From: Saccharopolyspora spinosa NRRL 18395
Lineage (GTDB): Bacteria; Actinomycetota; Actinomycetes; Mycobacteriales; Pseudonocardiaceae
Reading direction: 5' to 3'
DNA: 64,000 nucleotides
Assembly: GCF_000194155.1 (NCBI RefSeq)
Contig: NZ_GL877879.1
Location: 1,728,805-1,792,804, forward strand
Of this stretch, positions 6,375 through 25,897 are shown one piece after another. Position numbers and translations under genes: made by a program. Under the pieces are notes generated by a model. The model was given only the letters and a program-made list of their open reading frames with translations. It searched no databases and was not told the DNA's origin. Each line of letters begins with the position of its first letter. Position 1 is the first letter of the stretch.

Positions 6375-7616
6375 ATGCGTTCATTCGCTGAAAAGCGTGA
6401 AAGCCTCCTCCCGAAGGGCCGGGAGGTCCGAGCCCTGGCACTGGCGACGCTGACGAGCAGATTCGGCCGCGGGCTGTTCTACACGACCTTGCCGATCTAC
6501 CTCACCCGTTCGGTCGGGCTGAGCGTCCACGAGGTCGGTATCGGTCTCACCGCCGGTGCGCTGGTGGGACTGCTCGGCGGAGTGCCCGGTGGTCGCCTCG
6601 CGGACAGGGTCGGACCGCGGCTGGTGCGCACGGCGTGCCGCTTCGCGGAAGCGCTGATGATCTGCGGCTATCTCGCGATCGGAGGCCTGCCGGGATTCGT
6701 CGTCACGGCAGCGCTGGTCACCCTCTGCGAATCGGCCGGGCAAGCGGCCGAAGGCGCGCTCATCGCGCACGCGGTCGACCGGAACAGCCGGGTGCGAACT
6801 CGCGCTTATCTGCGGTCGGTCACCAATGCGGGCTGGATGGTGGGTTCCGCGCTCGCCGGAGTCGCGCTGCTGTCCGACACCGCTCTCGGCTATCAAGTCG
6901 TCATCGTCACCTCGGCGCTCTGCTACGCGCTCTCGGCCGTGGTCACGACGCAGGTTCCGCTTTCCGGAGCGGCACCGGAGAAGAAAGCTGCCGGTGGACG
7001 AGTGGCGGTCCTGCGGGACCGGCCTTATCTGGCGCTGACCGCGTTGAATGCCGTGCTGACCCTCAACATCGGGGTGTTCACCGTCGCCTTGCCGCTCTAC
7101 ATGGCGCAACGCACCCACGCGCCGGTCGCCTTGTACGCGGTGTTCTCCGTGATCAACACCGTCGTCGTGATGCTCTTCCAGGTACGCGCGAGCCGGCGGA
7201 CCGAGACCGCGACGGGTGCCGCCCGCGCACAGCGCCGAGCAGGCTACTTCCTCCTCGCATGCTGCCTATGCTTCGCGGTCGCGGACGGGACACCCGCGTG
7301 GGTCGCCGTCGTCTTCCTCTTCCTCGGTGTGGGCGTGCACGTCGTCGGCGAACTCCTGCATGCCGCCGGCTCGTGGGGAATCTCCTTCGAACTTGCACCG
7401 GAACACGCTCAGGGCGAATACCAGGGGGTTTACGGCGTCGGGCGGGACCTGGCCCAGGTCGTCACCCCCCTTGTCGCGACCACCGCGATGGCCGGTTGGG
7501 GCTGGGCGGGATGCGTGCTCCTCGGTGTCGTCTTTCTCGCGGCGGGATGCGCGGTTCCCCCTACGACGCGATGGGCGATCGGCCATGACAGCCGTCCCGT
7601 GCCCACACCGACGTGA
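6375..7616 (+). CDS. MFS transporter, probable phosphonate exporter
   Basis: Predicted 413 residues with about 12 hydrophobic segments. The N-terminal half carries the MFS loop motif as GGRLADRVGPR (about residues 70-80). I chose the ATG at 6375 because it gives the usual MFS length and a weak AGTAGG site precedes it. The frame is open further upstream to 6270. It is the first gene of the plus-strand arm of the phosphonate cluster, 52 nt ahead of the dehydrogenase gene, so export or self-protection for the product is the natural reading. The substrate is inferred only from position. Confidence 0.8.
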   Translation: MRSFAEKRESLLPKGREVRALALATLTSRFGRGLFYTTLPIYLTRSVGLSVHEVGIGLTAGALVGLLGGVPGGRLADRVGPRLVRTACRFAEALMICGYLAIGGLPGFVVTAALVTLCESAGQAAEGALIAHAVDRNSRVRTRAYLRSVTNAGWMVGSALAGVALLSDTALGYQVVIVTSALCYALSAVVTTQVPLSGAAPEKKAAGGRVAVLRDRPYLALTALNAVLTLNIGVFTVALPLYMAQRTHAPVALYAVFSVINTVVVMLFQVRASRRTETATGAARAQRRAGYFLLACCLCFAVADGTPAWVAVVFLFLGVGVHVVGELLHAAGSWGISFELAPEHAQGEYQGVYGVGRDLAQVVTPLVATTAMAGWGWAGCVLLGVVFLAAGCAVPPTTRWAIGHDSRPVPTPT

Positions 7617-7668
7617 ACCCGCGATCGAACCATTCAACTGTGCAGCCGCGACAACCCGAGGGGTTTCT

Positions 7669-8652
7669 GTGCGCAACGTTTCCGAAGATGCAGCTCCGGC
7701 ACCGCCTACGAGGTGGAAGGTCCTGGTCGTGGACCCCATACACGACGAGGCCCTCGAACGTCTGCGCCGGACCTGCGACGTCGTCGTCCACCTTCGGCCG
7801 TCGGCGGACGAGATCCTGACGTTGTCCCGCGACGCCGATGTGATCGTCCTGCGCAGCGGCGTACAGCTGCCCGCCGAGCTATTCGCCGGGGCCCAGCGCC
7901 TGAAGCTCGTGGCGCGGGCGGGTGCCGGCACGGACAACATCGACCTGACCGCCGCGCGCCATGCGGGCGTCGTCGTGTTCAACGTCCCAGGAGAGTCCGC
8001 AGGCGCGGTCGCGGAGCTGACGATCGGACTGCTGCTGGCGCTGGCGCGCAAGATCTCGCTGGCCGACCGGCAGGCCCGCACGAACGTATGGAACAAGTCG
8101 GCGCTGGTCGGATCCGAGCTCGCGGGCAAGACGATGGGAATCGTCGGCCACGGCAACATCGGCGCGCGGGTCGCCCACCTGGCGCAGGGCTTCTCCATGC
8201 GGGTGCTGACCTGCGTCGAGCGAGAAGACGAGCCCCGACGCCGCGCGCTGGCAGCGAGAAACATCGAGCTCGTCGGCCTCCGGGCCATGCTCCGGGAAGC
8301 CGACGTGGTCTGCCTCGCGGTCCCGCTGACGCCACGCACTCGCGGGCTGATCTCGGAGCCGGAGCTCGCGATGATGAAGTACGGCGCTTACCTCGTGAAC
8401 GTTTCCCGGGGTGAGATCGTCGACGAACGCGCCCTGCACGAGGCGCTGAAGCGAGGAACCCTCGCCGGTGCGGCGCTCGATGTCCGCACCGGTGAAGGCA
8501 GCCCAACGCAACTATCGACTCTGGACAACGTGGTGCTTACCCCGCACATCGGAGCCATGTCGTCGGACGCGCAGCGGCGGATCGGCCACATCGTGGTCGA
8601 GTCGATCCACAGCGCCATGACGGGCGCACCCGTCGCCAACCGGGTTTGCTGA
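7669..8652 (+). CDS. D-2-hydroxyacid dehydrogenase, likely phosphonopyruvate reductase
   Basis: A 327-residue NAD(P)-dependent D-2-hydroxyacid dehydrogenase. The Rossmann motif GHGNIG is at residues 160-165. The catalytic Arg (NVSRGE, R247), Glu (TGEG, E276) and His (TPHIGA, H293) are all present. The GTG start follows GAGGGG. In the valinophos and phosphonothrixin routes a dedicated dehydrogenase of this type reduces phosphonopyruvate to phosphonolactate, pulling the unfavourable PEP mutase equilibrium. The neighbours here (ArgC-like, PGK-like, alcohol dehydrogenases) fit that pathway, so I assign this step with good but indirect confidence. Confidence 0.85.
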   Translation: MRNVSEDAAPAPPTRWKVLVVDPIHDEALERLRRTCDVVVHLRPSADEILTLSRDADVIVLRSGVQLPAELFAGAQRLKLVARAGAGTDNIDLTAARHAGVVVFNVPGESAGAVAELTIGLLLALARKISLADRQARTNVWNKSALVGSELAGKTMGIVGHGNIGARVAHLAQGFSMRVLTCVEREDEPRRRALAARNIELVGLRAMLREADVVCLAVPLTPRTRGLISEPELAMMKYGAYLVNVSRGEIVDERALHEALKRGTLAGAALDVRTGEGSPTQLSTLDNVVLTPHIGAMSSDAQRRIGHIVVESIHSAMTGAPVANRVC

Positions 8653-8654
8653 TC

Positions 8655-9776
8655 ATGGGAGTCAATGGGCCGCGGCGAATGAAGGCGGCTGTTCTGGTGT
8701 CGGAGCGGTCGATCGAGTACCGCGATGTCGACGTGCCCGAACCAGGTGAGAACGAGTTGTTGGTCCGTGTGCATGCGACGGGGGTCTGCGGGTCGGACCT
8801 CGCGACATATCGAGGCACCCACCCGTACAAGCGACCACCGGTCATCCTCGGCCATGAGCTCTGCGGCGTCGTCGAACGCGTGGGGACGACGGTCGCCGGC
8901 TTCGCTCCTGGCGACAAGGTGTGCTCAGCGGCGTTCTCCCAGTGCGATGCCTGCGCGCCCTGCCATCGCGGCGCGGTGAACCTCTGTCGGAACCGGGCGA
9001 ACCTGTGCCACGCGGGCTGGGAAGGATCGTTCGCCGAGTACGTCGTCCTCCGCGAGAACATGACGTACCTGCTTCCCCCTGACGTCGACGACGCGTCGGG
9101 AGCGCTGGCCGAACCCTTGTCGATCGGCCTGCACGCGGTACGGCTGGTCGAGAACACGCCACCCGCGAGCACCGTCGTACTCGGTTCGGGCACCATCGGA
9201 CTGACCTGTCTGATCGCGGCGCGGAAACTCGGCTTCGGCTCGATCGGCTGCGTGGACCTCGGCCCGGCCAAAGGAGCACGGGCACGGCGGCTGGGGGCGG
9301 ATTACTACGTCGACGCCCGCGCCGGCAACGTGGTCAAGGCACTCGCGGCCCAGGCGCCCGAAGGATCCGACGTCACGTTCGTCGCCTCCGGCCACGACAC
9401 CGTCCTCGACGAAGCGTGCGCAATCACGCGGCCCGGCGGGCAGATCGTCGTCGTGAGCTACTTCGACCGTCCCCGCAAGATCGAGCTGAACCGCCTGGTC
9501 TCGCACGGGCTAAGCATGCGGTTCTCCGCCCTGTCCACGCCTCGGGACTTCGCCGAGGTCATCGACTGGTTGTCGCGCGGAGAAATAGACCCCGCGTCGT
9601 TGATCACTCACCGCCTCCCGCTCAGCGCGGCGCACGAGATCAGCTTGATGGACCACGCACCCGAGGACGTCGGCAAGATCGTGCTGTTACCGCCGTCCCT
9701 GTCCCGCAGCACGTCGAAACCACCGGCCGGCCTGGCACCAGAACGAAGGGGGACAGATGAACAACTCGACCGCTGA
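8655..9776 (+). CDS. Zinc-dependent medium-chain alcohol dehydrogenase
   Basis: About 373 residues (364 if the ATG at 8682 is used; neither start has a clear ribosome site). GVCGSD and GHELCG supply catalytic zinc ligands, QCDACAPCHRGAVNLC supplies the four structural-zinc cysteines, and VLGSGTIG is the nucleotide-binding turn. The sorbitol/threonine-dehydrogenase-like architecture suits oxidation of a secondary alcohol. In this cluster the best fit is oxidation of 2,3-dihydroxypropylphosphonate to 3-hydroxy-2-oxopropylphosphonate, the ketone acceptor for the TPP enzymes. It overlaps the next gene by 20 bp, indicating one transcript. Confidence 0.8.
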   Translation: MGVNGPRRMKAAVLVSERSIEYRDVDVPEPGENELLVRVHATGVCGSDLATYRGTHPYKRPPVILGHELCGVVERVGTTVAGFAPGDKVCSAAFSQCDACAPCHRGAVNLCRNRANLCHAGWEGSFAEYVVLRENMTYLLPPDVDDASGALAEPLSIGLHAVRLVENTPPASTVVLGSGTIGLTCLIAARKLGFGSIGCVDLGPAKGARARRLGADYYVDARAGNVVKALAAQAPEGSDVTFVASGHDTVLDEACAITRPGGQIVVVSYFDRPRKIELNRLVSHGLSMRFSALSTPRDFAEVIDWLSRGEIDPASLITHRLPLSAAHEISLMDHAPEDVGKIVLLPPSLSRSTSKPPAGLAPERRGTDEQLDR

Positions 9777-10857
9777 CAAGCTGACGGTCGGCGTCGTCGG
9801 AGGGACCGGATACACCGGCGGTGAGCTGTGCCGCCTGCTGCTTGGCCATCCCGCCGTGGAGGTGATCCTGCCGACCTCCCGGGAGCCACGTCCGTTCGCT
9901 CACACCCACCCCAACCTCCGCGGCAGCGGACTGGAGTTCAGGCCCGTCGAGCGGCTGGAGGAGCAGGCCGACGAACTCGATGTGGTCTTCTTCTGCACGC
10001 CCTCCGGTGAGGCCATGAACCGAGTGGGTCACTTCCTGGACCACGGTGTCCGGGTGGTCGACCTCAGCGCGGACTTCCGATTCCGCGATGTCGACCGCTA
10101 CCAACGCGTCTACGGACGGGAACACGCCGCCGCGCACCTCCTTCCCGAGGCGGTGTACGGGGTGACCGAGCTCAACCGGGACCGCGTCCGCGACGCCCGG
10201 CTGATCGCCAATCCGGGCTGTTACGCCATCACCGCGATCCTGGCTCTGACACCCTTGCTCAACGGAGGCTTCGTCGATCTCACCAGCCCCCTGTCAATCC
10301 ACGCCACCAACGGGACGACGGGAGCGGGCACCACCCCGAAGAAGGCGATCATGCACGCCGAAGTGGCGGAATCGATGCTGGCCTACAGCCTTGAGGGTCA
10401 CCGCCACGGGCCGGAGCTCGAAGCCTTCCTCGCCAACGCGATCCAGGGCCCGCCGGTCCGCGTGGACATCAACACCGCACACGGCAACTTCGCGCGCGGG
10501 ATCCATTTGCAGGCCAACGCGGGCTTGCGGCAGCGGCTCGACCGCGACCAGCTGCTGGAGACCTTCACCGCGGCCTACGGGCCCGGGCACGAGGGAGAGC
10601 ACTTCGTGCTCGTCAACGACGTTCCCAAGCAGGGTGGGGTGAACGAGAAGGAGTACGACGTGTACCCGAGCCTCGGGCACGTCGTCGGCTCCAACTTCTG
10701 CCACCTCGGAGTGGACGTCGACCGGGCGCGCGGCATCGCCAAGGTCGTCGCGGTGACCGACAACCTGGTCAAGGGTGCCGCCGGGTCGGCCATCCAGAAC
10801 ATGAACGTAATGTTCGGGCTGGACGAGACCCTGGGGCTGCGAACCTATGCGCTCTGA
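9757..10857 (+). CDS. ArgC-like acyl-phosphate reductase
   Basis: A 366-residue homolog of N-acetyl-gamma-glutamyl-phosphate reductase. It has GGTGYTGGEL near the N-terminus, the catalytic cysteine in NPGCY (C155) and the conserved histidine region GHRHGPEL (about 214-221). The ATG follows AAGGGGG. No arginine genes surround it, and its direct neighbour is a PGK-like kinase. In the valinophos route a kinase and reductase reminiscent of glycolysis and arginine synthesis turn phosphonolactate into phosphonolactaldehyde, and this gene is the expected reductase. A true arginine role is unlikely from context. Confidence 0.85.
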   Translation: MNNSTADKLTVGVVGGTGYTGGELCRLLLGHPAVEVILPTSREPRPFAHTHPNLRGSGLEFRPVERLEEQADELDVVFFCTPSGEAMNRVGHFLDHGVRVVDLSADFRFRDVDRYQRVYGREHAAAHLLPEAVYGVTELNRDRVRDARLIANPGCYAITAILALTPLLNGGFVDLTSPLSIHATNGTTGAGTTPKKAIMHAEVAESMLAYSLEGHRHGPELEAFLANAIQGPPVRVDINTAHGNFARGIHLQANAGLRQRLDRDQLLETFTAAYGPGHEGEHFVLVNDVPKQGGVNEKEYDVYPSLGHVVGSNFCHLGVDVDRARGIAKVVAVTDNLVKGAAGSAIQNMNVMFGLDETLGLRTYAL

Positions 10858-12063
10858 GGGGATGCGCGGAGTCAGGCTCCTCTCGCAGCAGGAGATCCGA
10901 TGCGGGCAGCGGTGGATCTACTCCGCCGGCTTCAACGTCGGGCGCGCGCTTGCCGACACCGGCCGGATCGACGAGGAACTCCCGGCCATCGAACGCCTCC
11001 TGGACGCAGGAGCCCGGGTGGCCGTGCTCTCGCACCAGGGCAACGGCGTCGACGACGCGAACGAACTGGATTTCGTCGCCGACTACATTGCCGACCGGCT
11101 CGGTCGCACCGTGGGCTACTTCCCCGGAAACGCCACGCCGGACGCAGTCGACCGCGCGCACGCGCTCCGCGCCGGTGAAGCCGTGGTGTTCGGCAACACC
11201 CGCAAGCACGCCGGGGAGATGACCAACTCGGCCGAGCTCGCCGGCCGGTTCGCCGCTCTCGGCGATTGTGCGGCCATCGGCGGGTTCTCGAAGGCGCATC
11301 GGGCTCACGCGTCGAACGTCGGCCTGCTCGGTCACCGGCCGGCCTTCGCCGCGGACAGCCTCGTCCACGAGACCGGACTGCTCGCGCCCTGGGCCGGGAG
11401 CTCGGACGAGCTGTACTCGGTGGCCGTGCTCGGAGGGGTGAAGCCGGAGAAGACCGCCATCGGCCTGGAACACCTGACCGCGACCTACGATCTGGTCATC
11501 CCGGGGGGAGCCGTCCTCAACAACCTGCTCCGGGCTCTCGGCCACGACATCGGATCGTCCACAGTGGGTTCTCGTCCCGAGAAGTGCTTGCAGGTGAGCA
11601 GAAACGTGCTGAAAACGTGCTGAACCGGGCGAACCGAGCCGAGCTGCACATACCCGACGAGGTCGTGATCGCCCGCCCGACAGGGCGTGACTTCGCCGAT
11701 GCCAGAACCATCCCGGTGTCACGGGGAGTGCCCTCGGACTACGCGATCGTCGACTTCGTGCTCGCCCCGTGGGTGTGCGCGAAGCTGGACCACCTCACGT
11801 CCCACGGCGGCCGGGCGTTCATCGCGGGAACACCCGCTCGCTACACCGAAGGATTCACGCGAGCCTCGGACGCGTTGCTCGGCGCTCTGGGCCACGATCG
11901 CGTCAACGCGCTGTTGCTGGGCGGGGACACGACCGCCGACCTGCCCTGGAACGGCACCAAATCCACTGGTGGCGGTTCCGCGCTGCACTACCTGGCGTAC
12001 GGAACGTGCCCCGTGTTCGATGCGCTGCGCACCAATGCCCTGCGCTGGGAGGCCACACTGTGA
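10847..12063 (+). CDS. Phosphoglycerate-kinase-like kinase, frameshifted as given
   Basis: The first two-thirds is read in one frame (to about 11570) and the last third in another. Together they make about 405 residues, PGK length. PGK landmarks in order are FNVGRALADTGRIDEELPAI, LSHQGNG, GNTRKHAGEMTNSAEL, KAHRAHASNVGL, GGVKPEKTAIGLEHL, then after the break LLLGGDT and KSTGGGSALHYLAYGTCPVF. The break near 11565-11585 behaves like a one-base loss; a sequencing error or a real inactivating change are both possible. The usual RVDFN is SAGFN, so substrate binding differs from glycolytic PGK. Expected role: phosphorylation of phosphonolactate to an acyl phosphate for the ArgC-like reductase. Confidence 0.8.
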
Positions 12064-13178
12064 TCATCGACTTCTCGATCCCGACCCGGGTCGTGTTCGG
12101 CCGGGGACGGCTTGCCGAGCTCGGGCGCGAAACCCGCGCGCTCGGTGCCTCCGCGCTGCTCGTGTGCGGACGGAACGCTATGCGCAGCAACGGAATACTC
12201 GCTGCCGCGTTGTCCGTGCTCGGGCAGGCGGGAGTCCGCGCTGAAGTGTTCGACCAGGTGTCACCGGATCCCCGCTCGGTCGAGGTCGACGCTGCCGTCC
12301 GGATGGCGGTTCAGTCCTCGTGCGATGTGATCGTGGGACTGGGCGGAGGAAGCGCCCTCGACGCGGCGAAAGCGACGGCGATCGGAATGCGGCACGGCGA
12401 ATCCGGACCGCTGGTGGGCCGCACCCTCCCGGCGACCGAGGATGCCGTGCCGGTCGTCGCGGTTCCGACGACGGCGGGCAGCGGCGCCGAGGTCACCAAG
12501 GGAGCGATCATCACCGATACCGAACGTGGCCTGAAATCCGGGATCCGGGGCGAGGACCTGTTCCCGCGCGTCGCCGTCGTCGACCCCGATCTGCTGCGCA
12601 GCGTGCCGGGCGGGCTCGCCGCCGAGACCGGGTTCGACGCGCTGGCGCACGCCGTCGAAGGCTACGTCGCACGTCGCGCGAATCGGCTGACCCGGTTGTT
12701 CGCCCTGGAGGCGTTGGACATCCTCGGCGGCTGCCTCACCCGCGTGGTGGCCGGCGAGACCGGCGCAGAGCTGCATGAGCGGATGGCGTTGGCCGCGCTG
12801 CTGGGCGGTCTGAACGTCGCCACGGCCAGCACGTGCCTGCCGCACAGGATGCAGCAAAGCATGGGCTCGGTGCCCGCCGTCGCAATCTCGCACGGCCGGG
12901 GACTCGCCACGATTTATCCGACCTGGCTCGCCCACGCGTACTCGCACGCCACGGCGGAGTTCGACACCATTGGGAGGCTCCTCGGCGACGACGACGTGCA
13001 CACCGCCGTGTCGAGGCTGCTGTCCGAGCTGGGTCTGCCACGCAGGCTGTCCGAAGGCGGGTTTGGTCCCCAGCACATCGACCGACTGCTCGCCGGCGTG
13101 ACCGGCAACGTCGACAACGATCCGGTTCCCGGGATCAACGGTGAGTTGATCCGGGAACTCTACGAGCGCGCACTTTGA
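12060..13178 (+). CDS. Iron-containing alcohol dehydrogenase, likely phosphonolactaldehyde reductase
   Basis: A 372-residue group III alcohol dehydrogenase with GTG start overlapping the kinase stop. The NAD-binding GLGGGSALDAAKA and PTTAGSGAEVTK are present. Metal ligands are visible as the Asp and His of FDALAHAVEGY, the His of TCLPHRMQQ and the His of SHGRG. Related enzymes reduce phosphonoacetaldehyde in other phosphonate clusters. Here it most likely reduces phosphonolactaldehyde to 2,3-dihydroxypropylphosphonate. Which of the two alcohol dehydrogenases does which step is inferred from family chemistry. Confidence 0.82.
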   Translation: MIIDFSIPTRVVFGRGRLAELGRETRALGASALLVCGRNAMRSNGILAAALSVLGQAGVRAEVFDQVSPDPRSVEVDAAVRMAVQSSCDVIVGLGGGSALDAAKATAIGMRHGESGPLVGRTLPATEDAVPVVAVPTTAGSGAEVTKGAIITDTERGLKSGIRGEDLFPRVAVVDPDLLRSVPGGLAAETGFDALAHAVEGYVARRANRLTRLFALEALDILGGCLTRVVAGETGAELHERMALAALLGGLNVATASTCLPHRMQQSMGSVPAVAISHGRGLATIYPTWLAHAYSHATAEFDTIGRLLGDDDVHTAVSRLLSELGLPRRLSEGGFGPQHIDRLLAGVTGNVDNDPVPGINGELIRELYERAL

Positions 13179-13362: not shown

Positions 13363-13380
13363 CACGACCGAATCAGGGCG

Positions 13381-14733
13381 TCATGGTTCGCCCGCCGGAT
13401 CCCGTGGTGTGGGGATGAGGTCCCGGAGGTACTCGCGGTGTTGAGCGGGTAGTGCGCTGCCACCTGGTCGTGGTATTCGTCTCGGGTCCACTGTGGGTGG
13501 TGGAATGAACACCGGTCGCTGGTCGCGTATCTCGGTTTCCCATCGCTGCGTGTGCAGGGTCCGGTGGTGGTGACCGCAGAGCATCACCATGTTGCCCAAA
13601 TCGGTTGCCCCACCATCGACCCAGTGCTCGACATGGTGCGCTTCCGGAGTTCCCGGCGGCCGGTCGCACCCCGGGAACGCACACACCCCGTCGCGCTGCA
13701 GCAGTGCGGCGCGCAGAGGTGTCGGCGCGGTCCGCTTCGCCCGCCCCACGTCCAGCGGGAGGCTGTCCCCGTCAAGAACGATCGGCAGTACTTCGGCGTC
13801 GCAGGCGATGCGGCGGACGTTTTCGGCGGTGATGGACCGTTCGGTGTTCAGGGTGCCGGGCATGCCCGTTTCGGCGGCGAGGAACCCGAGCCCCTTCTTC
13901 AAGTCCTCGAAGTCGATGGAGACGGTGATGTGCGGGCGCTGCCCACCAGTGCGCGGAACCCCGTCATGATCCAGCGCCAGGTCCAGGATCGCGGCGAAGC
14001 CGTCGGCGTTGCGCTGCCCGACCGTGCGCGGGTCCTTCTCCCCCTCGATCTCCGGGCGGGGAGCGGCCAGGGGGTGCACGAGCGCGGCGAACTTCGCGCC
14101 GGTCTCGCGGTCGAGGCGGGCTTTGATGACCGTCATCCCATCCGAGGTCGTCGCGTAATGCAGCTCCCGCGACTCATGCTGGTCTTCCTCGTCGTCGTGG
14201 GCGCCGTCCTGGTCCAGGAGATAGCGGATGCGTTCGGCGAGCTTCTCCAGCTCACGAGGCGTCATCGTCCGCGCGTACCCGGCCAGGGTCGATTCGACCT
14301 CACCGACCTGGTGACAGCGGGCGTACTCCGGCAAGCGGCGGACCCCGTCGACGATGACGCGTGCGTGCTCCAACCCGATCGCACCCGCTGCCAACGCCGC
14401 CGCGGTCTCGGGGAGGTCGGCGGGCATGACCTCGCCATACAGGCTCTGCCGGTCTTCAACATTGCGGGCCACCGTGACACGGGTTTTCGCATCACGCGCA
14501 TCGATGTTGAGCAGCCCCTGCAACCACACCTGCGCCGACCGGAACCCCAACTCGGCATACACACCGCGATGGTCGGCTTCGGCGATGCACTGCAACTGCT
14601 CCATCATCAACACCCGCATCCCCTCCTCCAGCTCACGGATTCGGGCGGCGAGTTCGGCATCCGTGCACGACACCGCCGACCGGGCACCAACGGTGCCCAC
14701 GGTCGAATCCTGGGTGTTCAACAGCGGTGTCAT
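13381..14733 (-). CDS. DUF222/HNH endonuclease domain protein (13E12 family)
   Basis: A 450-residue protein with an N-terminal DUF222 region and a C-terminal HNH nuclease motif (CAFPGCDRPPGTPEAHHVEH, then MVMLCGHHHRTLH). These proteins are abundant and repeated in actinomycete genomes. They behave like mobile or selfish genes, and their exact role is unknown. It is intact here and faces against the metabolic genes. It sits with an SDR scrap, REP-like elements and a chimeric transporter remnant between the two arms of the phosphonate cluster, so it is probably part of a later insertion. Confidence 0.85.
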   Translation of the reverse strand: MTPLLNTQDSTVGTVGARSAVSCTDAELAARIRELEEGMRVLMMEQLQCIAEADHRGVYAELGFRSAQVWLQGLLNIDARDAKTRVTVARNVEDRQSLYGEVMPADLPETAAALAAGAIGLEHARVIVDGVRRLPEYARCHQVGEVESTLAGYARTMTPRELEKLAERIRYLLDQDGAHDDEEDQHESRELHYATTSDGMTVIKARLDRETGAKFAALVHPLAAPRPEIEGEKDPRTVGQRNADGFAAILDLALDHDGVPRTGGQRPHITVSIDFEDLKKGLGFLAAETGMPGTLNTERSITAENVRRIACDAEVLPIVLDGDSLPLDVGRAKRTAPTPLRAALLQRDGVCAFPGCDRPPGTPEAHHVEHWVDGGATDLGNMVMLCGHHHRTLHTQRWETEIRDQRPVFIPPPTVDPRRIPRPGGSALPAQHREYLRDLIPTPRDPAGEP

Positions 14734-14953: not shown

Positions 14954-15109
14954 CCTCGCTCTATGAGCCTGTTTCGTTTTCGGCGAAAACTGCGGAATCG
15001 TCCTATCAACTCAGCCTTGATCATCGGCGTTCGGCCGCCAGCGGCCATCTCAGCCGTGATCAGTTGATCATTGATCGTAGTGGGCGCGATTTTGCGACAC
15101 GCTCCTATC

Positions 15110-15128
15110 GAAGTGAACGGTCCGTTCG
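15110..15128. repeat. Palindromic repeat, copy 2
   Basis: GAAGTGAACGGTCCGTTCG, the partner of the copy at 14935-14953, differing only at the centre. It could be a REP-like element or an operator pair. Confidence 0.6.
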
Positions 15129-15572: not shown

Positions 15573-15607
15573 CACCCACAACCGAACCCCCAAAAGCCCC
15601 AACCCCG

Positions 15608-17376: not shown

Positions 17377-17464
17377 CTGCATCCCACCACTCGTCCTGGA
17401 GTCGACGGCCGGACGGTGCGCGGCGCCTCCCGTGCCCAAACAGGAAGCGCCGCATGTTGCCCAC

Positions 17465-18298: not shown

Positions 18299-18331
18299 CG
18301 GGGACGACCCTCGTTTCAGGAATCCGTTCGG

Positions 18332-19429
18332 TCACGGGCGTTTAGGAGTCAGGGCGGCGCACATGATCTCCGCCACCTCGGGGTGCTGCACCACCGAAAG
18401 CGTTCCCTCCACGTCGTAGTGGTGCACCGTCGCGGCGGGCAGGAACGGCAACCAGTTCTTCTCGACCCCGTCGAGCATCGCAGCCGACTCCAGCAGGAGC
18501 GCCGGCCCGTCGTAGCTCCGGGGACGGTAGTGGTCCTGCGCGAAGACCCCGCAGGCCCAGATCATCTGCAGCCGGTAGAAGTCGTTCTCGGAGATGTCCT
18601 CGTCGTACCAGGCCATGTGCAGCATCTCCTGCAACACGCGTGTGACGTCCTCCTCGCCTTCCAGCCCGAACTGGGCGCGCAGCGCGCCCAGCCGGAAGCC
18701 GTAGAGCTCGTCCAGCCCCCAGCCCCGGTCCGCGATGGGTTCGAGGTCCGGGAGGTTGACCAGCGCGAGCAGCCCGATGTCCGCGCCCCGCTCGCGGAGG
18801 CGCCGGGCCATCTCCAGGGCGACCAGACCGCCCTGGCACAGCCCCGCGAGGAAGTAGGGGCCTTCGGGCTGGTGTTCCCGCAATTCCGCTAGATACCGCT
18901 CCGCCATCTCACCGATCGAGGTGAGTCCGGAAACGTGGCCGCGGTAGCCAGCCGCCTCGAACCCGTATACGGGGCGGTCGGCCCGCCAGGAGTCGATGAC
19001 CTGCGACGTGAACCGCACGTTGCCGTTTCCCCAGTGGACCACGAACAGCGGTGCGCCCTCCCCCTCCTCCCTGATGGGCACCAGGCATCTCGGGGCCGAG
19101 TCGCTCCACGGGTTCATCGCCTCGTTCCACAGGGTCTCGGCACCGCGCCGCTCGTCGTGCAGGCGCTGGTGATCCTGGTCGGGCGCGAGGATCGCGGCGA
19201 TCGCCTGCGGGGTCTGGTGGTCGAACACGTGGGACGCCTTCAATCCGACACCGCGCAAGCGTGCGGCTCGCACCAGGTCCACCACCAGGAGCGAGTAACC
19301 ACCGATGTCGAAGAAGCTGTCCTGTGGTCTCGCCTTCGTGTCGAGCATTTCACCCCACAACCCGCAGAGGACCTGCTCGATCGCGGGCCTGGACCAGAAC
19401 AGTGCTGCCCTCTTCTTTTCTGACGGCAC
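18332..19429 (-). CDS. NRPS carrier-thioesterase didomain protein with a Cys nucleophile
   Basis: A 365-residue protein. An N-terminal peptidyl carrier domain has the phosphopantetheine site DSFFDIGGYSLLVV (Ser46). A type I thioesterase follows, whose nucleophile elbow is GLCQGG, so Cys198 replaces the usual Ser of GxSxG. The likely catalytic His is H349 (VVQHPEV). The GTG start follows TTAGGAG, 9 nt after the upstream stop. Thioesterases with Cys nucleophiles are known in some systems making strained or unusual products. The stand-alone adenylation protein at 24296-25897 is the obvious loader, since no other carrier is present. Confidence 0.85.
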   Translation of the reverse strand: MPSEKKRAALFWSRPAIEQVLCGLWGEMLDTKARPQDSFFDIGGYSLLVVDLVRAARLRGVGLKASHVFDHQTPQAIAAILAPDQDHQRLHDERRGAETLWNEAMNPWSDSAPRCLVPIREEGEGAPLFVVHWGNGNVRFTSQVIDSWRADRPVYGFEAAGYRGHVSGLTSIGEMAERYLAELREHQPEGPYFLAGLCQGGLVALEMARRLRERGADIGLLALVNLPDLEPIADRGWGLDELYGFRLGALRAQFGLEGEEDVTRVLQEMLHMAWYDEDISENDFYRLQMIWACGVFAQDHYRPRSYDGPALLLESAAMLDGVEKNWLPFLPAATVHHYDVEGTLSVVQHPEVAEIMCAALTPKRP

Positions 19430-19438
19430 AACGGACTC

Positions 19439-21151
19439 CTAACAGCGGGTGGGGATCGTGACTCCGTCGTGGGTACGGATGTCGTGGGCTGCGGCGGGCC
19501 GCATCAGCTTCTGTCTGCTGTCGCAGATCACCTCGATCAGCGCCGGCCCCGGTGGTCCGAGGAGCGCGGCGAGGTCGTCGTCGAGCGCGTCGACGGCGCT
19601 CAGCCGGTGGTACGGAATCCGGAACGCCGCCGCGACGGCCCGGAAGTCCAGCGGTGCGGGTTCGTCGAGCACCCGGTCGGTGCAGAGCGCGTCCTGCGAC
19701 TCCCTGATGGACGAGTAACCGCCGTTGTTCAACACGAACACCTTGATGTCGCGCTCGTAGTCACTGATCGTCGCGAGTTCCTGGATGTTGAGCTCGATCG
19801 CGCCGTCTCCGACGATGGTGATCACCCGCGCTCCGGCCGCGGCGAAGGACGCGCCCACCGCCATCGGCACGGCGGCGCCCATGTTGAGGAACGCCGCGGA
19901 GGTGACCTCGCGCTGGTCATCGTTGAACTCCAGCGTCTGGCCGGTGACGTAGTAGGCGCTTCCGGTATCGACCACGAACACCGCATCGCGGCCCGCCTGC
20001 GCTTCCAACCGGTTCACGAAGTAGTACGAGTTGATCGGCTCCGTGGCGAGCGTCGCGGCGGACGGGCTCTTCTCCTTTAGCTCGCGGCAGTGGTTTCGCC
20101 ACTGTGGCCACTCCAGACCGGTCCGGTCGTGCTCGATCTGGCGGTTCATCTCGGTCAGGAGGCCGAGCAGGTCCATGCGCAGCCGGACGTCCACCGCGAC
20201 GTTGGCCCGGTCGAACTGGTCCGCGTCGAGATCGACCATCACCACGCGGGCCTGCGGCGAGAAGGCGTCCCGGTGTTCACCGACCAGACCGGTGGACAGG
20301 CTCGCACCGAGACTGACGACCAGGTCGGCCTCCCGCATCACCCGCTCGACGTGCGGCCGACCTCGGATCCCGCCCTGCCCCATCACAGCTTCCGAGCGGT
20401 ACGGAAGCAGGTCGTACCCGAGCCGGGTACACACGGTCGGAACGCCCAGGTGCTCGACCAGCGCCGCCAACTCCCCCTGGGCACGGGCCTGCCGGACGCC
20501 CTGGCCCACGACGAAGATGGGCCGCGACGCCCCGCGCAGCTCGTCGAGGACGACGGCGGCGGTTTCCGCGGGACCGTTGGACCACGGCTCCGGCGCGGGC
20601 GCCTCGAATCCGGCTAGCGCAGCAGGATCGATCTCCGCGGCCTGCACGTCCAGCGGCACGTCCAACCAGACCGGGCCGGGCCTGCCGGTGAGCGCCTCGT
20701 GGAAGGCGCGGTCCAGATGTGCCCTGATCTGGACGGGGTCGTCGACGACCACCGCGTACTTGGTCACCGGACGCACGCAGTCGACGACGTTGTAGCCCTG
20801 GATCCCGAACGAACGCGCTGACCGATCGATGTGGCGGCTCTCGACCTGTCCGGCGAGAACCAGCACCGGGACGGCGTCCGCCCACGCGTCGATCAGCCCG
20901 GCCATCGCGTTGGCCGCTCCTGGCCCACTGGTCACCACGGCGACGCCGATGTCGCCGGTCAGCTTCGACGCACCGGTACCCATCAGGGTCGCCGCGGCCT
21001 CGTGGCGCGCGCACACGCAGGTAAGCGCGTCCGCCTTCGCGATCGCCTCGTCGAGGAAGATCGAACCGGTACCCGAAAGCATGAAGACGGTCCGGACGTT
21101 CCGCTCGCGGATGTACTCGACGATGTAGTCAGCTACCCGCACGTCAGGCAC
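19439..21151 (-). CDS. TPP-dependent acetolactate-synthase-like enzyme
   Basis: About 570 residues with the three-domain layout of acetolactate synthase. The N-terminal domain has FMLSGTGSIFLDEA and the catalytic Glu in RHEAAATLM, followed by TSGPGAANAMAGLIDAWADA. The C-terminal TPP/Mg motif is GDGAIELNIQELATIS...LNNGGY. The start is GTG 21151 or 21142, both overlapping or adjoining the transketolase stop. In phosphonothrixin synthesis an acetolactate synthase works together with a heterodimeric TPP ketotransferase to add a two-carbon unit to the hydroxyketone phosphonate. The three TPP genes here are adjacent and overlapping, matching that design. It could instead decarboxylate phosphonopyruvate, but the rest of the cluster argues against that. 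Confidence 0.85.
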   Translation of the reverse strand: MPDVRVADYIVEYIRERNVRTVFMLSGTGSIFLDEAIAKADALTCVCARHEAAATLMGTGASKLTGDIGVAVVTSGPGAANAMAGLIDAWADAVPVLVLAGQVESRHIDRSARSFGIQGYNVVDCVRPVTKYAVVVDDPVQIRAHLDRAFHEALTGRPGPVWLDVPLDVQAAEIDPAALAGFEAPAPEPWSNGPAETAAVVLDELRGASRPIFVVGQGVRQARAQGELAALVEHLGVPTVCTRLGYDLLPYRSEAVMGQGGIRGRPHVERVMREADLVVSLGASLSTGLVGEHRDAFSPQARVVMVDLDADQFDRANVAVDVRLRMDLLGLLTEMNRQIEHDRTGLEWPQWRNHCRELKEKSPSAATLATEPINSYYFVNRLEAQAGRDAVFVVDTGSAYYVTGQTLEFNDDQREVTSAAFLNMGAAVPMAVGASFAAAGARVITIVGDGAIELNIQELATISDYERDIKVFVLNNGGYSSIRESQDALCTDRVLDEPAPLDFRAVAAAFRIPYHRLSAVDALDDDLAALLGPPGPALIEVICDSRQKLMRPAAAHDIRTHDGVTIPTRC

Positions 21152-22100
21152 GCCTCTGCTCGTGGCCGTCGAGCCAGTCCCGGACATCACGGGCGAGCAG
21201 TGGTCCCGTGAGCCGGAAGTGCTCGTGGAGGAACGCGGCGGGCCCGATCGGCGCGAAGGTGTTGGTGATGCCGAGCTGGAGCACGGGCACCGGCACCGTC
21301 CGGACGACGGTCTCGCTGACCGCTCCTCCCAGACCGCCGTTGAGCACGTGGTCTTCGGCCACCACCAGCCGGCCCGTCTCACGCGCCGCGCGCATGATGG
21401 CGGCCTCGTCGATCGGTGACACCGAATGCAGGTGCAGCACTCCGGCCCGAATGCCCTCGCGTTCCAGCAGTACGGCGGCTTCGACCAGTCTCGTAGTGGC
21501 CAGGCCAGTGCCGATGAGCGTGACGTCGCCGCCTTCCCGCAGCTGCGTCGAGGTCCCGAACGAGATCTCGTGCCCGGCGTCGAACAGCTCCGGCACCGGG
21601 GTCTTGCTGATGATCCGGAGGTAGACCGGACCTTCGTGTCGCCAGGCCAGGCGAGCGGCCGCCGCGGTCTCGGCCGGCGTCGCCGGGCAGAGCACCGGGA
21701 GGCCCGGGATCGACCGCATCCACGCGATGTCCTCGGTCGCGTGATGTGTTCCTCCCAGCGCCCCGTAGGCAAGACCGCTGACGAAGCCGCAGAACTTCAC
21801 GTTGGCGCCGGCGTAGGCGGCGTTCTTGATCTGTTCGGTGGCCCGGGCCAGGAAGCACGCCGCAGAATGCACGAACGGCACCTTGCCCGCGTTGGCCAGA
21901 CCCGCCGCCACACCGGCCATGTTCTGCTCGGCGATGCCGACATCGACGAACCGCGCGGGGAATCCGCGTTGGAAGTCGTTCGCCAAGTGGGTGTCGGCCG
22001 AGTCGTTGTTCACGATGCAGACGCGGTCGTCCTCGTCGGCGAGCCGCAGCAGTTCCCCGGCGAAGGCCTGCACGCAGTCCAGCAGTTGCGCGGATGTCAT
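21144..22100 (-). CDS. Transketolase C-terminal half (ketotransferase subunit)
   Basis: A 318-residue protein equal to the pyrimidine-binding and C-terminal domains of transketolase. The TPP-activating Glu is in VDVGIAEQNMAGVAAGLA, and GALGGTHHATEDIAWMRSIP is the conserved loop. The ATG overlaps the stop of the N-terminal-half gene by 4 bp. Split transketolases of this form make a heterodimer. Here it is predicted to be one subunit of the ketotransferase that installs the branched two-carbon group of a phosphonothrixin-like molecule. Confidence 0.88.
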   Translation of the reverse strand: MTSAQLLDCVQAFAGELLRLADEDDRVCIVNNDSADTHLANDFQRGFPARFVDVGIAEQNMAGVAAGLANAGKVPFVHSAACFLARATEQIKNAAYAGANVKFCGFVSGLAYGALGGTHHATEDIAWMRSIPGLPVLCPATPAETAAAARLAWRHEGPVYLRIISKTPVPELFDAGHEISFGTSTQLREGGDVTLIGTGLATTRLVEAAVLLEREGIRAGVLHLHSVSPIDEAAIMRAARETGRLVVAEDHVLNGGLGGAVSETVVRTVPVPVLQLGITNTFAPIGPAAFLHEHFRLTGPLLARDVRDWLDGHEQRRA

Positions 22101-22948
22101 CGCACGTTCCCCTCGTCCAGTTCCGCCAGCGCCCGCTCGTACATCTCGCGGGTCAGCCGCCTGCTGTGCCAGCTGAGATCGGATTCCATGAAGGAAACCC
22201 CCTTCCCCTTCACCGTCGCCGCGATCAGGCACGACGGCCGCCCCTCGGCGAGCGGGAGCGACCGCAGCACCGAGAGCATGTCCGGGACGTCGTGCCCGTC
22301 GATGTGCCGAACCGCCCAGCCGAAGGAGCGGAGCTTGTCGTCGAGCGGTTCCAGCGCGTTGATGTCCTCCGTGCTCGCGCCCTTCTGCGCGAGGTTCCGG
22401 TCGACGATCAGCGTGAGGTTGCTCAGCCCGTGCGTGCCGGCGAGCATCAGCGCCTCCCAGTTGCTCCCCTCCTGGAGCTCGCCGTCGCCGCACAGCACCA
22501 CGATCCGCCGAGCCGAGCTGTCCATCCGCCCGGCCAGCGCCGCACCGGTGGCCAGCGGCAGGCCGTGCCCCAGCGAGCCGGTGCTGAACTCCACGCCTGG
22601 GACGCGGGTGGACACCACAGTGCTCAGCCGGGAGTTCGCGCGCCCGAAGGTCTCCAGTTCTTCCTCCGGGATGAAGCCCTTCAAAGACAGGACGCTGTAC
22701 ATCGCGGTTGACGCGTGGGCCTTGCTGAGCACGAACCGGTCGCGGTCGGGGTCGGCGGCATCCTGGGCATCCACCCGCAGCACACCGAAGTAAAGGGTGC
22801 AAAGGATGTCCATCGCCGACATGTCGGCCCCGAGGTGGCCGTCCTGGGCGTGGAATGCCGTCCGCAGGGACAACGCTCGCGCGCGGCGGGCAATCCGCTC
22901 GATCTCGACGGCGTCGGCCGTCGCCGACGGGTCGCTGTTGTGGGTCAA
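22097..22948 (-). CDS. Transketolase N-terminal half (ketotransferase subunit)
   Basis: A 283-residue TPP-binding domain of transketolase, with GHLGADMSAMDILCTLYFG, STGSLGHGLPLATG and the TPP motif GDGELQEGSNWEAL. I chose the TTG at 22948 because GAGAGGATC lies just upstream and it gives the family length. It is translationally coupled to the C-terminal-half gene (ATGA overlap) and follows pepM by about 106 nt. The two halves together would form one ketotransferase. Confidence 0.88.
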   Translation of the reverse strand: MTHNSDPSATADAVEIERIARRARALSLRTAFHAQDGHLGADMSAMDILCTLYFGVLRVDAQDAADPDRDRFVLSKAHASTAMYSVLSLKGFIPEEELETFGRANSRLSTVVSTRVPGVEFSTGSLGHGLPLATGAALAGRMDSSARRIVVLCGDGELQEGSNWEALMLAGTHGLSNLTLIVDRNLAQKGASTEDINALEPLDDKLRSFGWAVRHIDGHDVPDMLSVLRSLPLAEGRPSCLIAATVKGKGVSFMESDLSWHSRRLTREMYERALAELDEGNVR

Positions 22949-23054
22949 GGCAGATCCTCTCCGGTGTGCGGGTGCTGGTCGCGATTCGGCTCCGGCGCGC
23001 CTCGAACGCGCAGCGCCGGACCGATCCGCCCCCTGCGGGAGCGCTCTCCCCGGC

Positions 23055-23978
23055 CTAGTCATCGGCGGCGCTCGTGCCCCGCAGCAGCAACCTGCGCTCG
23101 GTCTCCTCGATCTCGGCGTAGTCCATGAACTCGAATATCTCCTTAAGCGAAGCGATCTTCGCCTCCGCGCTCAGCACGCTCTCGCTGGCTTTGATCGACC
23201 GGCAGACGTCCCGCATCGCGGTCACTGCGGCGCGCATGCTGTGGTTCGCCCAGATCACCGCGGAGATCCCGAGCTCTCTGAAGGTGTCCGCGGACGTGCT
23301 CGCGTACGTCGTCGGTGCGATGACCAGCGGCGCCCGGTCGGCCCACGCCGCGGCGAACTGCTCGATCTCGTCGGCCACCTGCCGCCGCGAGTGCACGAAG
23401 ATGGCGGTGGCGCCCGCTTTCCGGTAGGCCTCGGCACGTTTGAGCGCCTCATCCACACCGCGTCCGGCGATCAGCGCCTCGGTGCGCGCGATGATGCAGA
23501 AGTCCTCGTCGTTGCGCGCCTCGCTGCACGCAGCGATCTTCGCGGCGAACTCGTCGATGTCGGCCAGCCGGTGGGAGTCACCGACGAACGAGTTCATCTT
23601 CGGGAAAACCTTGTCCTCGAAGCACACCCCTGCGGCGCCCTGCCGCTCGGCGCTGACGAGGAAGCGCCGAGCCGTGTTGAAGTTGCCGTACCCGGTGTCC
23701 CCGTCGACGACGATGGGGACCGAGGTCCCGGCGACCATGTACTCGACCACCGAGAGCAACTGCGACCACGACGCCTCGTCGCTGTCGCGAAGGCCGAGGG
23801 ATGTCGAGATCGAGAAACCGGAGGCCCACAACGCATCAAAGCCCTCGCTCTGCGCAATGCGCGCCGAAAGGCCGTCATGGGCCTCCATCAGGAACACCAT
23901 TTCGGGTGAATCCAGCATTCGACGCATCTGCGCGGCCTTGCCGACCGGGCCGCCAGGTTGACGAGATGTATTCCTCAT
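23055..23978 (-). CDS. pepM: Phosphoenolpyruvate phosphomutase
   Basis: A 307-residue isocitrate-lyase/PEP-mutase superfamily protein with the diagnostic mutase motif EDKxxxxxNS, here EDKVFPKMNS at residues 121-130. DGDTGYG (92-98) supplies metal-binding acids. The NS ending and the lysine distinguish mutase from lyases and phosphonopyruvate hydrolase. It makes the C-P bond by converting PEP to phosphonopyruvate, the entry step for nearly all phosphonate natural products. It is the first gene of the minus-strand operon and divergent from the adenylation gene, so the spacer between them is a key control point. Confidence 0.96.
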   Translation of the reverse strand: MRNTSRQPGGPVGKAAQMRRMLDSPEMVFLMEAHDGLSARIAQSEGFDALWASGFSISTSLGLRDSDEASWSQLLSVVEYMVAGTSVPIVVDGDTGYGNFNTARRFLVSAERQGAAGVCFEDKVFPKMNSFVGDSHRLADIDEFAAKIAACSEARNDEDFCIIARTEALIAGRGVDEALKRAEAYRKAGATAIFVHSRRQVADEIEQFAAAWADRAPLVIAPTTYASTSADTFRELGISAVIWANHSMRAAVTAMRDVCRSIKASESVLSAEAKIASLKEIFEFMDYAEIEETERRLLLRGTSAADD

Positions 23979-24295
23979 ACGCTCACTTCCACATCGACAC
24001 GCAGCGAGAAGAAAAACTCACACGCTCAGCCGTCCCCCAGGGATGTGCAGGGCGAACAGGACTCTTCCGTTCCCCCGACGCGACACGCGGACCCCGCAGC
24101 AGCGTGTGATCCTCATTGGAGCCCGTCCGCCACTCAGATCCGCCAGACGGACCCAGCAACCGAGAACGTACCCGGAGATCGACTGGAACGCCGACGCCGT
24201 GTCCGAAACTTTCCAAACCGGAAAAGCCGCTATACCAGCGTTCCGCGCGCTGCTAGCGTCGGCCGAACACCTGAAACCGGACTGGGGAGAATGTC
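23979..24295. promoter_or_regulatory. Divergent promoter region of pepM operon and adenylation gene
   Basis: The 317-bp spacer separates two divergent cluster transcripts and must hold both promoters. It is slightly less GC-rich near pepM. I searched by eye for the StrR-like arms GTTCGACTG/CAGTCGAAC and found none here. Confidence 0.5.
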
Positions 24296-25897
24296 GTGCC
24301 AGCGGCAAGTACTGATGGTCGGGCGACAGCGCATCTTATTGGAGTCACGTCGCTACCCGATCTGTTCACACGGGTCGCGCGCAATCAGAAAGACGCCGTC
24401 GCGATAACGGATGGTGGGAACGCGCACACTTACGGCTCGCTGGAATCCGCGGCGAACGGGCTCGCCCATCACCTTGTCGCCAGCGGTGTCAAGCCGGGTG
24501 ATCTGGTCGGCGTTCTGATCGATGGCACCCTGAACGTTCCGGTGGCACTGCTGGCCATTCTCAAAGCGGGCGCCGCTTATGTCCCCTTCGACCCGTCCTA
24601 TCCCGCGGACCGGCTGAATTACATGGTCGCCGACGCCCGGGTCGGCATCATCGTCGGAAATCCCGGCACAGCAGCCGACATCGGCCTCAGCGACGTTCGG
24701 ACCATCGACGCCGCGCAGGTGGCGACCACCGAAGTGGCCGCTCCCGAGGTCGAACTGCGCGAACATTCGCCTGCCTACGTGATCTACACGTCCGGTTCGA
24801 CCGGGAGACCGAAAGGCTGCGTGGTCTCCCACGGAAATGTGCTCTCACTGCTGCGCGGCACACTTCCCCTCTTCGAATTCTCCGCCGACGACCGGTGGAC
24901 CGTGTTCCACTCCTTCAGCTTCGACTTCTCCGTCTGGGAGCTCTGGGGAGCTCTGGCCACGGGCGCCACCGCAGTACTCGTCCCCGCCCGCACCGCCGCT
25001 GCGCACGACGACTTCCTGCGCCTCCTGATGCAGGAGAAGATCACCGTGCTGAACCAGGTGCCCTCCTGCTTCCGCTCGATTGCCTTGTCGCACGCGGACG
25101 CGGGATGGCCGGCGCTCAGCCTGCGTTACCTGACCTTCGGCGGAGAGAACGTCGACCTGGACGTGGTGCGCGAGTTCGTGGACGGTCAGACCGGACCCAA
25201 ACCCGTGGTGGCCAACATGTACGGCGTCACTGAGGCGACCGTCTTCGCCACCGCCAAGTTCATCCGCGACGAAGACCTCGACGGCCGGGTGGCATCTCCC
25301 ATCGGCGTCGGGCTCCCGCACCTGGGAGTGCACGTGTGCGACTCACAGCTGCGCCCGGTGCCGAAGGGCGTCGCAGGCGAGATCTGCATCACCGGTGGCG
25401 GGGTCGCACTGGGCTATCTCAACCAGCCTTCGCTGACGGCTGAGAAGTTCGTCCACGTCGGAGCGAAGGCGGAGCGCTGCTACCGCACCGGCGACCTCGC
25501 CAAGGTTCTTCCCAACGGGGAGCTGGAATACCTCGGGCGCGCCGATCAGCAGGTCAAGCTCCGCGGCTACCGCATCGAACTGCGTGAGATCGAGGAGACG
25601 ATCAGGCGACACCGCTCGGCGCGTGACGCCGCCGTGACCGTGGTAACGACGCGCAACGGCGCGGAACTGATCGCCGCGTACGTCGTGCCAGCCGACAGCG
25701 CCGACGGTATCGACCCCGACCTCCGCAGGTATCTCCGCGATCAACTGCCCCGGCAGATGGTTCCCGCGCGCTTCTACCTGCTGGATGGACTCCCACTCTC
25801 CCCGTCCGGAAAACTCGACCGGCAGGCGCTCGCCGATCTTGCTCAGGACCACCGCCCGGCCAAGGGCGCACCGAAACCGCCGGACGCCGCCCGCTGA
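24296..25897 (+). CDS. Stand-alone NRPS adenylation protein, threonine-like code
   Basis: A 533-residue amino-acid adenylating enzyme with all core motifs: AYVIYTSGSTGRPKG (A3), FSFDFSVWELWG (A4), NMYGVTEATV (A5), YRTGDLA and the catalytic Lys in LSPSGKLDRQAL (A10). It has no condensation or carrier domain. Reading the pocket by alignment to GrsA by eye gives D-F-W-N-T-G-M-V-F-K, eight of ten positions shared with the threonine code DFWNIGMVHK. It probably activates threonine or a close relative and loads the carrier of the thioesterase protein at 18332-19429. Confidence 0.88.
   Translation: MPAASTDGRATAHLIGVTSLPDLFTRVARNQKDAVAITDGGNAHTYGSLESAANGLAHHLVASGVKPGDLVGVLIDGTLNVPVALLAILKAGAAYVPFDPSYPADRLNYMVADARVGIIVGNPGTAADIGLSDVRTIDAAQVATTEVAAPEVELREHSPAYVIYTSGSTGRPKGCVVSHGNVLSLLRGTLPLFEFSADDRWTVFHSFSFDFSVWELWGALATGATAVLVPARTAAAHDDFLRLLMQEKITVLNQVPSCFRSIALSHADAGWPALSLRYLTFGGENVDLDVVREFVDGQTGPKPVVANMYGVTEATVFATAKFIRDEDLDGRVASPIGVGLPHLGVHVCDSQLRPVPKGVAGEICITGGGVALGYLNQPSLTAEKFVHVGAKAERCYRTGDLAKVLPNGELEYLGRADQQVKLRGYRIELREIEETIRRHRSARDAAVTVVTTRNGAELIAAYVVPADSADGIDPDLRRYLRDQLPRQMVPARFYLLDGLPLSPSGKLDRQALADLAQDHRPAKGAPKPPDAAR

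Follow-up and report, generated by a model that had tools for sequence, protein, structure and literature searches.

We analysed a stretch of 64,000 nucleotides from Saccharopolyspora spinosa NRRL 18395 (contig NZ_GL877879.1, positions 1,728,805 to 1,792,804; hereafter the window), which is part of an 8.58 Mb genome in 22 contigs. Positions 6375 to 25897 of the window carry what we consider, with a probability of about 0.8, to be a phosphonothrixin (ftx)-type phosphonate biosynthetic gene cluster in Pseudonocardiaceae, for which a route from phosphoenolpyruvate (PEP) to a branched core can be proposed from the gene content; the tailoring or aminoacyl part of the pathway is less certain. The predicted product is a carbon-phosphorus compound resembling a herbicide. 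The genes are arranged in two operons, 6375-13178 on the forward and 16103-23978 on the reverse strand, with a separate adenylation gene at 24296-25897 on the forward strand. Within each operon, neighbouring genes overlap or are separated by at most 106 bases. The original prediction had placed nine enzyme types together at this locus: a PEP mutase, a D-2-hydroxyacid dehydrogenase, a PGK-like kinase, an ArgC-like reductase, iron and zinc alcohol dehydrogenases (Fe-ADH, Zn-ADH), the two halves of a split transketolase and an acetolactate-synthase-like (ALS-like) enzyme. Scans with Pfam and NCBIfam models found all nine between 6375 and 25897 and recognized, in addition, an MFS transporter, an adenylation domain, a carrier-thioesterase protein, a PhyH oxygenase and an ATP-grasp ligase. 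The earlier gene list was thus right for the nine types but incomplete: it overlooked that the PGK-like gene is split over two frames, omitted the adenylation domain, the carrier-thioesterase, the PhyH gene and the likewise frame-split ATP-grasp gene, and passed over a DUF222-HNH gene that interrupts the cluster between the operons.

The PEP mutase (PepM; 23055-23978, reverse strand) scored 352.6 bits against TIGR02320 (cut-off 319.55) and carries, at residue 121, the EDKVFPKMNS motif by which it had originally been recognized. The models for phosphonopyruvate hydrolase (220.5 bits, cut-off 374.4) and methylisocitrate lyase (158.9 bits, cut-off 354.4) remained below their thresholds, which answers the earlier concern that the protein might group with hydrolases or lyases. 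The nearest solved chain was 1m1b, a PEP phosphomutase. Score and motif mark it as a predicted true PEP mutase, as expected for the phosphonothrixin type. On the same strand lie the N half (TktN, 22097-22948; PF00456, 122 bits; a longer start at 23062 is possible) and the C half (TktC, 21144-22100; PF02779/PF02780) of the split transketolase, and the ALS-like gene (19439-21142), a thiamine pyrophosphate (TPP) enzyme that would make the acetyl donor and scored 296 bits against TIGR00118, under the cut-off of 538.

The forward operon begins with the MFS transporter (6375-7616; PF07690, 115 bits; alternative longer start at 6270), likely the product exporter, which is 37-38% identical to the MFS proteins of the Kitasatospora clusters described below and 98% to its counterpart in G280, a genome of the same genus. 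Next comes the D-2-hydroxyacid dehydrogenase (7669-8652; PF02826, 184 bits), the presumed phosphonopyruvate reductase, with 52-67% identity to counterparts in 13 other clusters and 98% to G280. The Zn-ADH (8679-9776; PF08240/PF00107, GHELCG motif) is the candidate for oxidation of 2,3-dihydroxypropylphosphonate (DHPPA). The ArgC-like semialdehyde dehydrogenase (9757-10857; TIGR01850, 327.7 bits, cut-off 233.6), putatively converting an acyl phosphate to phosphonolactaldehyde, shares its active-site motif NPGCY with all sequences compared (15/15). The PGK-like kinase is represented by an N-terminal piece (10847-11623; PF00162, positions 26-242 of 379) and, in a different frame, a C-terminal piece (11617-12063), which in a tblastn comparison matched the C-terminal end of its G280 counterpart with 93% identity. 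The operon closes with the Fe-ADH (12060-13178; PF00465, 170 bits), expected to reduce phosphonolactaldehyde to DHPPA and 51-63% identical to counterparts in 12 other clusters (96% in G280). These scans bear out the claim that a candidate gene exists for every step leading from PEP to a phosphonothrixin-like core, the chemistry itself being a matter of prediction.

The remaining genes of the reverse operon would belong to product tailoring. A carrier (peptidyl carrier protein)-thioesterase didomain protein (18332-19429; PF00550, 35 bits; PF00975, 68 bits) is 96% identical in G280. The PhyH-family non-haem iron oxygenase (17465-18298; PF05721, 63 bits) has WHIH in place of WHxD. The ATP-grasp ligase is split into an N-terminal piece (16528-17382; PF01071, 25.8 bits, just missing the cut-off of 27; 99% in G280, 44-48% against the four Kitasatospora clusters) and a C-terminal piece (16103-16609; 97% and 44-49%, respectively). 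The gene at 24296-25897 encodes a stand-alone nonribosomal peptide synthetase adenylation domain (TIGR01733, 414.6 bits, cut-off 317.4) with a threonine-like pocket as read by eye.

Evidence for the assignment also came from the TPP enzymes. PepM was detected at an E-value of 1e-55 in 16 of 70 Kitasatospora genomes, and in 4 of the 15 neighbourhoods read (G462, G504, G482, G450) TktN, TktC and ALS stand side by side; the neighbourhood of the sixteenth (K. phosalacinea, L084) had no such trio. These clusters surfaced only at this laxer threshold and not at 1e-85. The transketolase halves of the window are 69-71% identical to those of the Kitasatospora clusters. In the TktN tree, the window, G280 and the four Kitasatospora sequences formed a clade (100/99) against controls comprising four transketolase-type rows of the own genome, ten rows from other genomes and four split transketolases of other settings. 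The own-genome rows were four of eight PF00456 matches; the remaining four comprised the match in the window and three pieces resembling pyruvate dehydrogenase. In the ALS tree, window and G280 joined the Kitasatospora clusters (100/100), apart from ten ALS-type rows of the own genome (10 of 12 PF00205 matches; the window's own and one under the cut-off were left out). Both trees were built from in-frame tblastn matches; some ALS rows are long, hence the deeper order of that tree was not used. The TktC tree, drawn without own-genome rows, gave the same Kitasatospora clade (100/100) among split halves. A grouping of the TPP enzymes with primary metabolism, the second doubt raised with the original prediction, is therefore contradicted for TktN and ALS.

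Phosphonothrixin biosynthesis is said to be widespread in actinobacteria, to judge from a title in reference lists. The ftx cluster attributed to Bown et al. (2023, J Bacteriol) reportedly encodes PepM, a 2-hydroxyacid dehydrogenase, a kinase, a reductase and an alcohol dehydrogenase leading to DHPPA, followed by oxidation to a ketone, a heterodimeric TPP ketotransferase and an ALS. The window likewise has a PepM, the early route, the ketone step, a heterodimeric TPP enzyme and an ALS. The valinophos cluster (Zhang et al. 2022) reportedly combines the DHPPA route with an ATP-grasp ester ligase and lacks TPP enzymes; the window shares the early route and the ATP-grasp ligase and has TPP enzymes as well, which sets it apart from the valinophos type. 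Our comparison took the four Kitasatospora clusters as a stand-in for ftx. On this basis the window encodes a heterodimeric split transketolase and an ALS that by sequence belong to the pathway's own clade, together with the predicted early DHPPA genes (dehydrogenase, PGK-like, ArgC-like, Fe-ADH), the kinase here in two frames. Kitasatospora purpeofusca has been reported to carry ftx (PMC12723261).

The four Kitasatospora clusters and the window share 13 gene types: ATP-grasp, MFS, PepM, TktN, TktC, ALS, PhyH (as a type only), adenylation, D-2-hydroxyacid dehydrogenase, Zn-ADH, ArgC-like, PGK-like and Fe-ADH. Since adenylation, ATP-grasp and MFS genes are common to all of them, these appear to go with the cluster type. 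The arrangement differs in several respects. In Kitasatospora the D-2-hydroxyacid dehydrogenase is fused to the adenylation domain, whereas the window has separate genes. The Kitasatospora clusters have a stand-alone condensation domain and, in three of them (G482 being the exception), a free carrier protein was called, whereas in the window the carrier is fused to the thioesterase and a stand-alone condensation domain is missing. PepM is of another lineage in the Kitasatospora clusters, and their oxygenase is a different one.

From the genes, families, conservation and clades observed, a route can be laid out in which we infer every chemical step from the published pathway. PEP mutase would make phosphonopyruvate from PEP, and the D-2-hydroxyacid dehydrogenase would pull it on to phosphonolactate. 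The PGK-like kinase and the ArgC-like reductase would activate and then reduce the carboxylate, and Fe-ADH would yield DHPPA, which Zn-ADH would oxidize to 3-hydroxy-2-oxopropylphosphonate. The ALS-like enzyme would convert pyruvate to acetolactate, from which the heterodimeric transketolase may transfer an acetyl unit onto the ketone to give the branched phosphonothrixin core. Less certain are the later steps. An amino acid, probably a threonine-like one, may be loaded by the adenylation domain and the carrier-thioesterase and then altered by the WHxH oxygenase; either the ATP-grasp ligase or the thioesterase may couple this residue with the phosphonate. What is exported would then be an aminoacyl phosphonothrixin or a close analogue. 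The route itself is already published and hence not new; our analysis adds the mosaic build of the cluster, its variant tailoring set, its WHxH oxygenase and, in its relatives, a neighbouring RibB gene. Our literature search found no description of this cluster, but most subscription papers fell outside its coverage and we do not claim that it is absent from print.

This RibB neighbour is a DHBP synthase gene of 226-254 amino acids at the edge of all four Kitasatospora TPP-trio clusters (in G462 at L198:5666-6430; at the same place in G504, G482 and G450); the family search was run on the G462 copy. DHBP synthase (RibB) is the target of phosphonothrixin (PMC12268802), and its presence fits with the Kitasatospora clusters being phosphonothrixin-type. 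One reading is that RibB is a candidate spare target copy for self-protection, a principle shown for lumazine synthase and flavophos (PMC12871164). Flavin supply is an alternative role, because the far-side genes of G462, the only cluster examined in this respect, include a luciferase-like, probably flavin-dependent monooxygenase; riboflavin genes were not among them. The passages seen on phosphonothrixin do not mention a RibB in its cluster, which the primary paper may do. With RibB beside all four Kitasatospora clusters, self-protection by a spare target copy becomes a testable case. The S. spinosa genome gave six DHBP-synthase matches, one of them RibBA-like at 55535-56119 of the window and one a separate RibB located on contig C1; no link between any of the six and the cluster emerged. 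As a self-resistance gene the window copy was rejected, given its distance and its neighbours, which read from their translations as a flavin reductase, an aldehyde dehydrogenase and an LLM-type monooxygenase and look catabolic.

Several observations weigh against the phosphonothrixin-type assignment. The PEP mutase shares only 42-43% identity with its Kitasatospora counterparts and belongs to a separate clade; in a tree of window and cluster rows (G134 left out, G069 a partial row) it grouped with G274, G023 and G089 (100/100 split). A PepM clade shared with Kitasatospora, which would be expected of the phosphonothrixin type without defining it, was thus not found. The oxygenase and the carrier/thioesterase arrangement are unlike those of Kitasatospora, and in this assembly a frame break interrupts the PGK-like gene. 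Whereas the Kitasatospora clusters have RibB upstream, no RibB adjoins the cluster in the window, the copy there being about 30 kb away. The next-nearest TktN rows, which join at 95/97, are not phosphonate enzymes: one is a half from Rhizobium sugar catabolism, the other an unannotated half on a Streptomyces plasmid. The plasmid of Rhizobium sp. SL42 (L259) has ribB near split transketolase genes and, over the 8.7 kb displayed, no PEP mutase, which weakens RibB as a mark of phosphonothrixin. Finally, phosphonothrixin is not known to be aminoacylated, which counts against either the tailoring part or phosphonothrixin as the end product.

In the most serious rival explanation, 3-hydroxy-2-oxopropylphosphonate is the end point or a branch point of the pathway; the TPP enzymes would use some other substrate, and the product would be a branched or chain-extended phosphonate other than phosphonothrixin. 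The PEP mutase is nearest to clusters without TktN, TktC or ALS in the stretches read, the ArgC-like, PGK-like and Fe-ADH proteins are nearest to those of other Pseudonocardiaceae clusters, and split transketolases serve other pathways as well, such as sugar catabolism and LysW-type amino acid genes. Nevertheless, taken together the three TPP enzymes are closest to those of Kitasatospora, and the 69-71% identity of the transketolase halves stands against 50-54% for the ten best listed of 260 records of plasmid N halves. We consider a different substrate rather doubtful and retain the phosphonothrixin-type route. The Rhizobium and Streptomyces plasmid neighbours give a hint of where the ketotransferase may have originated. 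The Rhizobium locus, whose TktN is next nearest to the window clade, also encodes an FGGY kinase, as well as an ABC transporter of the D-ribose type. Two Streptomyces plasmid clusters (L258, L260) used as tree controls contain split transketolases and LysW genes, L258 also argB and argC.

The ArgC-like (98/98), Fe-ADH (100/98) and PGK-like proteins (95/94; window N piece only) grouped with other Pseudonocardiaceae clusters, while the trees of the dehydrogenase and Zn-ADH gave no resolved grouping. Because TPP, early and PepM proteins fall in clades of different lineages, the cluster is, as far as sequences can tell, a mosaic of a shared TPP module, a family-local early module and a PepM of a further lineage. 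Given the low PepM identity and the different PepM clade, it is therefore not an ortholog of the Kitasatospora clusters as a whole. Gene loss elsewhere or a diverged PepM would be a less likely explanation than mosaic assembly. This second cluster form, with its different tailoring genes, suggests analogues or conjugates of the known compound. The DHPPA-type clusters of Saccharothrix NRRL B-16314 (L055), Actinoalloteichus caeruleus (L057) and Actinopolyspora mzabensis (L059) have PepM proteins 60-70% identical to that of the window and the full early set. For G274, G023 and G134, a reading of 36-39 kb turned up neither TktN nor TktC nor ALS, whereas the window has all three.

The two broken genes raise the question of whether the cluster is decaying and non-producing. 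Both the PGK-like and the ATP-grasp gene occupy two frames in this assembly and one frame each in G280, where the PGK-like gene is a single open frame of 402 amino acids. The break in the ATP-grasp gene coincides with a 29-base homopolymer at 16639-16667 (C on the forward, G on the reverse strand), the only run of at least 9 bases in the window; G or C runs of at least 12 were not seen in the other loci checked. Such a run is the expected appearance of a dark-cycle error in two-colour sequencing, and for this reason we hold the ATP-grasp break to be probably a sequencing or assembly artefact. At the PGK-like break we looked for an artefact signature and found none, and this break may speak for decay. 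The remaining genes are open, however, with 93-99% protein identity to G280, and a decayed cluster appears improbable to us.

The comparison with G280, for which a 37 kb stretch was used, also defined the extent of the cluster. From the MFS gene to the adenylation domain, gene order is conserved and the proteins are 95-99% identical (PGK-like C piece, 93%). Tight packing, the order kept in G280 and the adjacency of the same enzymes in 4 of 15 Kitasatospora PepM neighbourhoods indicate a real cluster. A chance grouping of primary-metabolism or catabolic genes, which the 12 PF00205 matches of the own genome and the 260 plasmid records of split transketolases might suggest, is contradicted by the TktN and ALS trees, the PEP mutase cut-offs and the block conserved in G280, and can practically be set aside.

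As cluster members we dropped the genes to the right of 25897, namely an aminotransferase (26347-27423), a GntR regulator and hydantoinase genes, and on the left a LuxR gene at 3380, none of which had a match in the G280 stretch. An open reading frame at 15105-16160 had no family match, is frame-disrupted in G280 and was taken as non-coding or a remnant. The DUF222-HNH gene (13381-14733, reverse strand; PF02720, 180 bits; PF01844) stands outside the route and is 90% identical in G280. An HTH-type gene at 4320-5381, whose Pfam match is slightly below the cut-off, is 96% identical in G280 and has relatives near PepM in G285 and G163; it is a possible regulator.

The tailoring genes offer some indications of the product. 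The adenylation pocket, placed by eye on an alignment, reads DFWNTGMVFK in the window and DFWNVGMVHK in Kitasatospora, the final K being assumed and not read; the threonine code is DFWNIGMVHK. The domain is 54-55% identical to the Kitasatospora adenylation part. The oxygenases are much more distant, with 31% identity over 94 residues only and WHIH in the window against WHTD in Kitasatospora. The WHxH motif occurred in all seven sequences of the subfamily (that of the window and L251-L256), among them five further relatives (41-44% identity) from genomes outside the 29 family genomes that carry PepM, which hints at a three-histidine iron site; among PLSDB plasmids there was no match to the window PhyH. 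We tentatively suggest that the product could be a conjugate in which a threonine-like residue, modified by the three-histidine oxygenase (WHxH...H), sits on a phosphonothrixin core and masks an inhibitor of the riboflavin pathway until uptake, and that such clusters might have been assembled more than once from the shared TPP module and different DHPPA modules and PEP mutases.

PepM was found at an E-value of 1e-50 in 29 of 297 family genomes, and neighbourhoods of 34-39 kb or 18-20 kb were read in 28 of them, the own genome included (G061, on a small contig, was omitted); a second, weaker PepM match of G069 lies outside the survey. The stretches being of limited length, the counts are lower bounds. 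At least 11 of the 28 have the early set (dehydrogenase, ArgC-like, PGK-like, Fe-ADH) by PepM: G000 (the own genome), G280, G274, G023, G134, G069, G060, G262, G059, G291 and G279, the Fe-ADH of G262 being seen in a longer stretch and no Zn-ADH being seen in G291. TktN and TktC occur near PepM in at least four (G000, G280, G279, G089), and the complete trio with ALS in at least two, G000 and G280. Within the genus, the cluster PepM was present in 2 of 22 genomes searched (own included), and G262 has a different PepM with 39% identity.

Of 183 confirmed PepM loci on named genome contigs, 80 were retained, and none of these 80 had the TPP trio within its flanks at 1e-15. PepM was found in 4 of 394 Streptomycetaceae at 1e-85, and these four neighbourhoods, one of them L084, had no trio. 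A TktN search over 396 genomes of the phylum at 1e-75 returned two: S. spinosa itself, and a second genome whose match had 45% identity and an internal stop.

Two further observations concern the relatives. In G279 (L172/L212/L213) a phosphonate cluster combines the early set with a more distant TktN and TktC (45/40%) and with guanylate-kinase-like and NUDIX proteins; no ALS match was found in the 50 kb read. In G262, G060, G059, G274 and G023, which have DHPPA-type clusters without TPP enzymes, a gene pair encoding proteins of 731-745 and 364-393 amino acids, matched by size only, recurs beside PepM.

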